Below are positions 1 to 5,552 of a stretch of 64,000 bases of DNA, in pieces (the stretch's first letter is position 1; each line of letters opens with the position of its first letter). The notes beneath the pieces are model-generated. The model did no database searches, had not been told where the DNA came from, and worked only from the letters and a program-made list of their open reading frames with translations. Position numbers and translations under genes: made by a program. The DNA is from a bacterium (GTDB lineage Bacteria > JAJVIF01), in assembly GCA_022072165.1 (NCBI GenBank), contig JAJVIF010000004.1:2262-66261 (forward strand), given 5' to 3'.

Positions 1-73
1 TACAATGAGAGAACCCGTGAGGTCAGCCAGATACACGCTGTGGCCGTCGGACAATGACCGCTCAGGTACAATG
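1..73 (+). CRISPR. End of a type II-C CRISPR array (partial)
   Basis: One full repeat is visible at about 37-72, and the last six or seven bases of the preceding repeat (tacaatg) lie at 1-7, giving a 66-bp period, that is a 36-bp repeat and a 30-bp spacer (about 7-36). The repeat ends in TACAAT, as many type II-C repeats do. Its core at 52-69 is the exact reverse complement of bases in the tracrRNA anti-repeat at 5436-5453, which identifies it as the repeat used by the neighbouring Cas9 and sets the crRNA strand as plus. The array is cut by the window edge, so its length, leader and other spacers are not visible. The visible copy is the terminal repeat and could differ from the consensus. Confidence 0.8.
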
Positions 74-110
74 CCTCAGCCCATCAGCCCAGTGTTGATC
101 GGCTGAGGCA
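72..110. terminator. Long hairpin between the array and cas2
   Basis: Bases 72-81 (tgcctcagcc) and 101-110 (ggctgaggca) are perfect inverted repeats. An inner stem (83-86 with 96-99) extends it after one mismatch. It starts where the last repeat ends and lies 13 bp before the cas2 stop. It sits where the array and the cas operon converge, so a bidirectional stop is plausible, but neither side has a clean T tract. Confidence 0.4.
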
Positions 111-122
111 GCGATTTCTCCC

Positions 123-686
123 TCAAAAAAGGACCAGTTGGGAGGGGCTATCTTCGGGTTTTTCGCGCGATTTTCCGAAAAAGATGTCCATCTTCCCGAA
201 CTGCAGATCAGTGATCGCCACCAGGCGGACCTGGCCAGCAGGCGGCAGCTCACTCCGGACCCGGCGACGATATTTCTCCGAGACTTCATCACTGGCGCAG
301 TATATCGCGTAGACCGAGAACTGCAACATCATGAAGCCTTCCGCCAGGAGGGCCTTGCGAAACTTCGTGTAGTTCCGACGATCGGTCTTGGTTTCCACCG
401 GCAGGTCAAACATTGCAAAGAGCCACATGCCACGCACCGCCGATAACGGAGGATAAGGAGGAGGTTGACGGGAACGCTTTGGGGGGCGCCCGGGCGAGCG
501 CTTCGGTGCAACAACAGGTTCATGTTCCGACATCAGCGGCAACAGGAGCTCAGCTTCGGGCGCAGCCGCTTCCATAGGCTCCGGCGCCGGTGGCGCTTCC
601 GGTGCCGGGGCAGCCGCCGACTCCGCTGGCGCACTGAAGTCCAGCAGCATGCTCCAGGGGTCCGGGGTGGTGCGTCGACGCGCCAC
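123..686 (-). CDS. cas2: Cas2 with a long N-terminal extension
   Basis: CRISPR spacer-acquisition protein Cas2, the dimer at the centre of the Cas1-Cas2 integrase. The canonical domain begins at residue 87 (MWLFAMFDLP, with Asp94 at the usual metal site), continues through TKFRKALLAEGF and ends with TDLQFGKMDIFFG. Only about 100 residues are expected, but the frame runs 187. The extra N-terminus is Ala/Pro/Glu-rich and then basic, with an AT-hook-like core GRP inside KRSPGRPPKRSR (62-73). I chose the GTG at 686 because it lies 8 bp after the cas1 stop with GGAG upstream, and the frame stays open. The internal ATG at 428 would give a normal 101-residue Cas2 and has no clear ribosome site. It is last in the cas9-cas1-cas2 operon. 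Confidence 0.9.
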   Translation of the reverse strand: MARRRTTPDPWSMLLDFSAPAESAAAPAPEAPPAPEPMEAAAPEAELLLPLMSEHEPVVAPKRSPGRPPKRSRQPPPYPPLSAVRGMWLFAMFDLPVETKTDRRNYTKFRKALLAEGFMMLQFSVYAIYCASDEVSEKYRRRVRSELPPAGQVRLVAITDLQFGKMDIFFGKSREKPEDSPSQLVLF

Positions 687-694
687 GGCTGGGG

Positions 695-1669
695 TTACTC
701 CGGCGCGATCGGCGCGTCCTGCGCTCCTTGTGCTTCCTGCTGCAGCGGCAGGGTGGGTCCTTCCAGTGGTCGCAACTGATCAAGCTCTGGCAGCAACAAG
801 GTCTTGCGCTCCCCTGCATACACCTGCGCCAGAGACGAGGCGACCCGGGCGATACAGTCAAACAGGGTCCGCCACTCCCCCTGCCAGAGATACCGCCCGG
901 TGATCTGCTCCAAAAGCCAGCGTCGGGTGGTCTGGTCCAGGGGGTCCTCCGGGTCGTGGTCTGCAATCCAGCGGGCGACCGCCAGGTCCACCAGCGGACG
1001 CCAGGGCTCCATCAGATCATCCGCCAGACAGAAGGGGTTGTAGCGGTTCTTGTGATGCAGGCCCAGCGACGGGTGCAGGCCGGCCCCGCAGATCGCCCGG
1101 GCGGTGATCCCCCGGAGGATGGCGTAGCCATAGTTCAGGTGGCGATTCTGATCCCCCGCCTGCCGGTCGCGACGAAACTGACGGTCGCCAAAGATCCGCT
1201 CCCAGTACTTGCGGGACGCCTGGGCTTCGAGGTTGGAGGGGTCGCCGCTTTTGACTCGTCCACTGAGCGTGCGGAGTCCGGCATCACTGCCGGTCTGCGC
1301 TTCCAGGGCGGCTCCCTGAGTGGCGATCTTCAGACGGATCACCTGCGCCCAGCAGCGTTTGCGGGTGGGAACTGACGCAGCGGCCTGCTGGGCAAAACGC
1401 TCGGTCTGGACAAAGTGACCCTCCAGCGGCAGGAACATGCCGCTGGGGAGGTACTTGGAGTCGCAGACGATGAGGGCCACCTGATGACTCGCCAGAGCGC
1501 TCAAGGCGGGGTGGGAGAAACTGATCTGGGGGTGGGCGGCGACAACCGCCGCGAGATCCTCCAGGGGGATGGTGAGGTCAGGCGCGTCCTGGGCCGAGAG
1601 GACCAGGAGGCTGTTGCGGGCCCCGACTTTGCAGGGGGTGTCGGAGAGGTCGAGGATGCGGTCAGGCAT
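695..1669 (-). CDS. cas1: CRISPR-associated endonuclease Cas1 (type II)
   Basis: Cas1 is the integrase that inserts new spacers, acting with Cas2. At 324 residues it is slightly long for the type II form. Conserved metal-binding positions are visible: Glu148 (NLEAQASRKYW), a His at 205-206 in LGLHHKNRYNPF, and acidic residues in LADDLMEPWRP (217-221). The start overlaps the cas9 stop by 8 bp, with an AGGAGG-type site inside the cas9 end, so translation is probably coupled. The last 35 or so residues are Gln/Pro/Ala-rich and look dispensable. No Csn2 or Cas4 gene is present, which fits subtype II-C. Confidence 0.96.
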   Translation of the reverse strand: MPDRILDLSDTPCKVGARNSLLVLSAQDAPDLTIPLEDLAAVVAAHPQISFSHPALSALASHQVALIVCDSKYLPSGMFLPLEGHFVQTERFAQQAAASVPTRKRCWAQVIRLKIATQGAALEAQTGSDAGLRTLSGRVKSGDPSNLEAQASRKYWERIFGDRQFRRDRQAGDQNRHLNYGYAILRGITARAICGAGLHPSLGLHHKNRYNPFCLADDLMEPWRPLVDLAVARWIADHDPEDPLDQTTRRWLLEQITGRYLWQGEWRTLFDCIARVASSLAQVYAGERKTLLLPELDQLRPLEGPTLPLQQEAQGAQDAPIAPE

Positions 1670-5433: not shown

Positions 5434-5552
5434 GCGTACCTGAGCGGTCATTGCCGATGGTCACAGTAAGAACCACTGTCACCTCGACTTTGGCTCGCAG
5501 GGCAACGTCTACGGACGCCCCTTCGACCCCTCCTGAGGGGTCGCTTTTTTTT
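5434..5552 (+). ncRNA. tracrRNA for the Cas9
   Basis: The anti-repeat starts near 5434. The 18 bases gtacctgagcggtcattg (5436-5453) are perfectly complementary to the CRISPR repeat at 52-69. Pairing continues after one bulged base, with two G-U pairs, to about 5466 (repeat 39-51). Small stems follow (acagt/actgt near 5465-5481 and others near 5500-5520). It ends in a strong intrinsic terminator: stem cgacccct/aggggtcg (5524-5531 with 5536-5543) and eight T (5545-5552). The transcript would be about 119 nt, divergent from cas9. This is inferred from pairing and structure; no expression is visible. Confidence 0.85.
5524..5552 (+). terminator. Intrinsic terminator of the tracrRNA
   Basis: An 8-bp GC-rich stem (5524-5531 with 5536-5543), a cctg loop and eight consecutive T. 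The stem is likely also the last hairpin of the mature tracrRNA. The 300 bp between here and 5854 hold no ORF I would support; a TACAAT box near 5749 has no good -35. Confidence 0.85.

Follow-up and report, generated by a model that had tools for sequence, protein, structure and literature searches.

A type II-C Cas2 with a probable N-terminal extension confined to one lineage, next to a leader palindrome shared across its clade

Introduction

Type II Cas2 proteins (TIGR01573/PF09827), including those solved from E. faecalis (5XVN-5XVP) and S. thermophilus (8PK1/8Q2N), share a ferredoxin-like domain, which the Cas2 described here has in both sequence and fold; in the solved chains only a few residues precede this domain, whereas the present protein has about 80 more. 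The type II-C Cas2 proteins of Planctomycetota, Acidobacteriota, Zixibacteria and other MAGs (our loci L039-L118) show about 53-67% identity to it over the domain, and their loci have the same gene order and, where an array was found, a similar interval of about 50 bp between cas2 and the array. Unlike the present protein, they carry a short, often basic N-terminus without a Pro/Ala tail. An added segment is also found in fusions of Cas2, for example Cas2-DEDDh (PDB 8FY9), but there it is a folded enzyme, whereas here it is an unfolded tail that matches no domain.

By a review definition, an AT-hook has GRP at its centre and K/R, often accompanied by P, on its flanks (PMC11354804). The tail has GRP and flanking basic and proline residues in common with the HMGA-type hook (TPKRPRGRPKK; PMC11354804), but differs from it in having a PGRP core in a single, unconserved copy and no A/T-rich target in sight. 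In type II-C systems new spacers are inserted beside cas2, as described for R. anatipestifer (PMC6008519) and likewise in PMC12080349. A literature search for Cas2 with an N-terminal extension, disorder or an AT-hook returned nothing relevant.

The CRISPR-Cas locus and its cas2 gene

The window, by which we mean the whole 64,000-nucleotide stretch of bacterial DNA analysed, contains a complete type II-C-like CRISPR-Cas locus, so assigned because its operon holds cas9, a type II cas1 and cas2 only, without csn2 or cas4 (Table 1). The gene order is cas9-cas1-cas2-array, with a tracrRNA anti-repeat beside cas9 as in type II-C systems. The cas9 and cas1 genes overlap by 8 nt, another 8 nt lie between the cas1 stop and GTG686, and cas2 is the final gene of this compact operon, followed by the array. 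The array is made of identical 36-nt repeats and continues below the window to the contig edge; on its other side the locus is bordered by the anti-repeat and then by a long plus-strand ORF. The strand of the anti-repeat implies that the array reads towards cas2. About 36 near-identical repeats are present in L002 (1-2333, G000:C4), where a gap of 10 N and the edge of the contig truncate the array. Its far end lies outside the assembly.

Table 1. Positions of the features discussed, numbered along the window
Feature	Position	Strand	Basis or remark
CRISPR repeat nearest cas2, 36 nt	37..72	+	
50-bp interval from cas2 stop to repeat	73..122	.	palindrome at 73-109
cas2, 187 aa, GTG686 start	123..686	-	ORF list, profile matches
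Residues 87-187, ferredoxin-like Cas2 domain with its C-terminal tail	126..428	-	profile and structure matches
Alternative start ATG (M87)	426..428	-	
Putative N-terminal extension, residues 1-86 (extra part about 1-80)	429..686	-	ORF; missing from relatives
LSAVR, residues 81-85, counterpart of the LS(E/G/A)YR that the family conserves before strand 1	432..446	-	alignment
Alternative start GTG (V84)	435..437	-	
AT-hook-like string KRSPGRPPKRSR, residues 62-73	468..503	-	sequence
cas1, type II family	695..1669	-	ORF list and profile match
cas9, 1241 aa	1662..5387	-	ORF list and profile match
tracrRNA anti-repeat adjoining cas9 start	5436..5466	+	score 50 vs <=28 for shuffled repeats

The genome has a single cas2 gene. 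Its product exceeded the curated cut-offs of both Cas2 families, matching Pfam PF09827 over residues 87-166 (E 9.9e-15; 54.9 bits, cut-off 23.8) and NCBIfam TIGR01573 over residues 87-177 (E 1.9e-16; 60.1 bits, cut-off 24.5). An AlphaFold2 model built with 46 aligned sequences reached a pLDDT of 88-97 over residues 91-170, where it predicts the ferredoxin-like fold of the Cas1-Cas2 integrase, and the closest structures to the modelled domain were type II Cas2 chains within Cas1-Cas2 integrase complexes. The first-pass annotation had let the Cas2 domain begin at residue 87. The profile matches indeed begin there, but homology within the family reaches further towards the N-terminus: in 46 aligned sequences of the clade R85 is conserved and S82 never varies, so that only about residues 1-80 are extra.

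The N-terminal tail and its absence from relatives

Proline and alanine make up 42% of residues 1-86; of the 371 ORFs sampled from the genome, 8 have a stretch this rich in the two residues, cas2 among them. The tail starts with a basic MARRR, continues with an acidic, Pro/Ala-rich stretch (residues 13-58, net -9) and ends in a basic one (residues 59-78, net +6) that contains KRSPGRPPKRSR; the first-pass description of a Pro/Ala-rich stretch of 86 residues with a GRP core and basic flanks at 62-73 is thus borne out. AlphaFold2 predicted no secondary structure over residues 1-86 (block pLDDT 56-73). A Pfam search of the tail gave nothing at E up to 10, a null to be read with the caveat that HMMER filters may discard motifs as short as an AT-hook. 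The tail was rejected as a copy from elsewhere in the genome, since protein and DNA searches matched only the tail itself, and also as a tracrRNA or other RNA element, the anti-repeat lying beside cas9.

Relatives were collected by whole-genome searches and a contig scan, which gave 108 loci that include cas1 and a further ten; they come mostly from planctomycete, acidobacterial and zixibacterial MAGs, and a few loci represent the same genome in two collections. Alignment of these homologues spoke against conservation of the tail: none of the approximately 118 Cas2 relatives (33-67% identity) has a comparable one, and they keep the short form of about 105-120 aa, which is largely the outcome that the first-pass annotation had named as refuting its proposal. 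Because the compared relatives lack it, the front end of about 80 residues is probably, to judge from these sequences, a recent lineage-specific addition and not a general DNA-binding module. Among the four genomes searched from the phylum, cas2 was detectable only in the source genome, and one of the others (G002) has cas9 only, broken at a contig end. A contig scan with Cas9 as bait and a viral contig scan with Cas2 as bait gave no match.

The relatives usually start with M-P-R-R or M-K-G, followed by LS(E/G/A)YR. A short start could be scored in 99 of them: it lies 4-26 residues ahead of the R85 equivalent, falls within -20 to +30 nt of the cas1 stop in 77, and is followed in 37 by at least two K/R among residues 2-6, often as the MPRR that the MARRR at GTG686 resembles. 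Basic N-terminal tails of 19-26 residues are found in relatives such as L113 and L109. In L015/L040, L017, L025, L073, L103 and L108, which have no tail, 160-570 nt separate the end of cas1 from the beginning of cas2. L004 and L084 have no ATG, GTG or TTG 4-30 residues upstream, their sole near option being a GTG at the 87 equivalent; in L084, just before 6501, no such codon exists from the upstream stop to the residue-87 equivalent, which points to an unusual start or a sequence error.

Where translation begins

The explanation that we favour, at somewhat better than even, is that this is an ordinary type II-C Cas2 whose N-terminus was extended by about 70-80 disordered residues in one lineage, a weighting that takes in the proposed nature of the tail besides the start site. 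GC-rich DNA added at the cas1-cas2 junction would have turned coding and come to separate the conserved LSxYR from an ancestral basic start (MxRR beside the cas1 stop). The Cas2 domain would retain its role as the dimeric bridge in the Cas1-Cas2 integrase, and the tail would be a flexible appendage. The extension is probably real but a singleton, and a disordered Cas2 tail seen in one case is, taken alone, a minor variant; should the cell translate and use it, this would be an unusual Cas2 with its own DNA-contacting arm.

We infer from the sequence that translation is likely to begin at GTG686, with V84 or M87 an unlikely start and M52 an improbable one. Earlier support for the GTG start had come from operon spacing and the ribosome site. 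The spacing of 8 nt from cas1 holds, but the ribosome site of GTG686 is mediocre and, at -6.1 kcal/mol (10 nt), does not surpass that of ATG428 (-6.3 kcal/mol). GTG686 would be the best start for its position, better than that of ATG428, for its family-like MARRR and for taking in LSAVR. V84 has no ribosome site, and residues 53-83 offer no in-frame start. By eye, the other frames have no ATG or TTG just upstream of the domain, and on this ground a frameshift masking a short start was rejected.

The strongest competitor, though we consider it unlikely, is that 429-686 is an untranslated cas1-cas2 spacer, open by chance, with a short Cas2 made from ATG428 or GTG437. The codon statistics of the tail lie between those of coding and off-frame DNA and closer to the latter, with 1.7% of true 86-codon stretches scoring this low, 15% of open off-frames scoring this high and the poorest values at residues 59-86, but the test is weak for this tail because Pro/Ala-rich proteins have an unusual codon make-up in any case. 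In DNA as GC-rich as this, a stop-free frame of 86 codons is not rare, 13% of off-frame stretches of that length in the window's genes being open; seven relatives have an untranslated cas1-cas2 gap of more than 150 nt, L004 and L084 have their GTG at the 87 equivalent, and type II-A Cas2 requires few residues ahead of the short-form start. Against an untranslated spacer, the clade-conserved LSxYR would be lost or truncated (an M87 start would remove LSAVR altogether), and the N-terminus lies at least 4 residues before R85 in nearly all relatives; this reading would further need 250 nt of untranslated DNA within a tight operon, and a suitably positioned in-frame GTG where that gap begins.

Initiation at the internal ATG of M52 would give a Cas2 of about 136 aa with a basic tail of 35 residues, retaining both the basic patch and LSxYR and recalling the tails of L113 and L109, but this codon lacks a ribosome site (-1.9 kcal/mol) and lies 153 nt beyond the coupled-start position, and we regard the reading as improbable.

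The AT-hook-like motif

The first-pass annotation had further proposed that the tail acts as a DNA hook at the leader. Flanked at either end by prolines and basic residues, the GRP core at residues 62-73 agrees with a loose definition of an AT-hook (PMC11354804), and shuffling produced GRP with basic flanks in 0.6% of cases from the whole tail and 3.6% from its basic part. In the 371-ORF genome sample, 6 further proteins contain the loose string. The HMGA-type RGRP is lacking, however, Pro replacing its first Arg, Pfam gave no match, and no relative has GRP with close basic residues on both sides in its N-terminus, the nearest being MKGRPPSAYR in L070. At the acquisition end, A+T accounts for 38% of the interval, and its A/T runs do not exceed 4, so it offers no A/T-rich minor-groove target; the nearest longer run, A6 at 125-130, lies inside the end of cas2. 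On these grounds an AT-hook acting specifically on the leader is unlikely, and AT-hook function is not supported. That the tail is a working AT-hook gripping the minor groove of an A/T-rich leader and aiding spacer integration strikes us as very improbable. In our preferred reading of a flexible extension, the basic patch at residues 59-78, near the domain, would provide at most extra, non-sequence-specific contacts with DNA or a partner, and such DNA contact is possible.

The interval between cas2 and the array

The distance from the cas2 stop to the first repeat was 48-53 bp in 68 of 77 placeable loci (65 of 74 distinct sequences, window included); seven added loci had intervals of 49-51 bp, three of them repeating sequences already seen. 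Most intervals contain an inverted repeat, with a mean stem score of 10.1 vs 4.3 after shuffling and a score above all 30 shuffles in 66% of them. Across 56 non-redundant intervals we counted 148 two-sided pair-cell changes vs 83.8 in shuffled data (0 of 500 shuffles reached 148), and sliding the palindrome partners lowered the count to 66-97. Two bases are near-invariant, A(-34) in 59 of 65 and T(-13) in 60 of 65 intervals. The interval of about 50 bp and its covarying palindrome are found at the acquisition end in a II-C clade spanning many phyla (alignment A3, L003-L117). No paper on a leader palindrome between cas2 and the array was found in a literature search. The palindrome may be a leader signal for Cas1-Cas2 or an insulator. 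We give it greater weight than the tail: it bears on how II-C integrases without Csn2 or Cas4 choose the leader-repeat junction, a question that is apparently open, and a covarying palindrome at a fixed distance, with two near-invariant bases, is a directly testable signal.

The window keeps the 50-bp length and has a 9+4-bp palindrome directly against the repeat, centred at about -19 vs -23 in the clade and hence about 4 bp closer to the repeat. It lacks both A(-34) and T(-13), apparently as the sole case among the 65 distinct intervals. It is a long shot that the tail offsets this altered leader, with its missing bases and shifted palindrome, by giving another leader contact; if true, it would represent a leader-recognition arm borne by Cas2 where neither Csn2 nor Cas4 is present.

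An RNA hairpin formed on one strand was rejected as an identity for the palindrome: flanked mismatches comprised 7 G.T vs 11 A.C, and without an excess of G.T over A.C there is no strand preference. The palindrome is also distinct from the published II-C hairpins, which sit at the opposite, oldest-spacer end of the array (PMC12080349).
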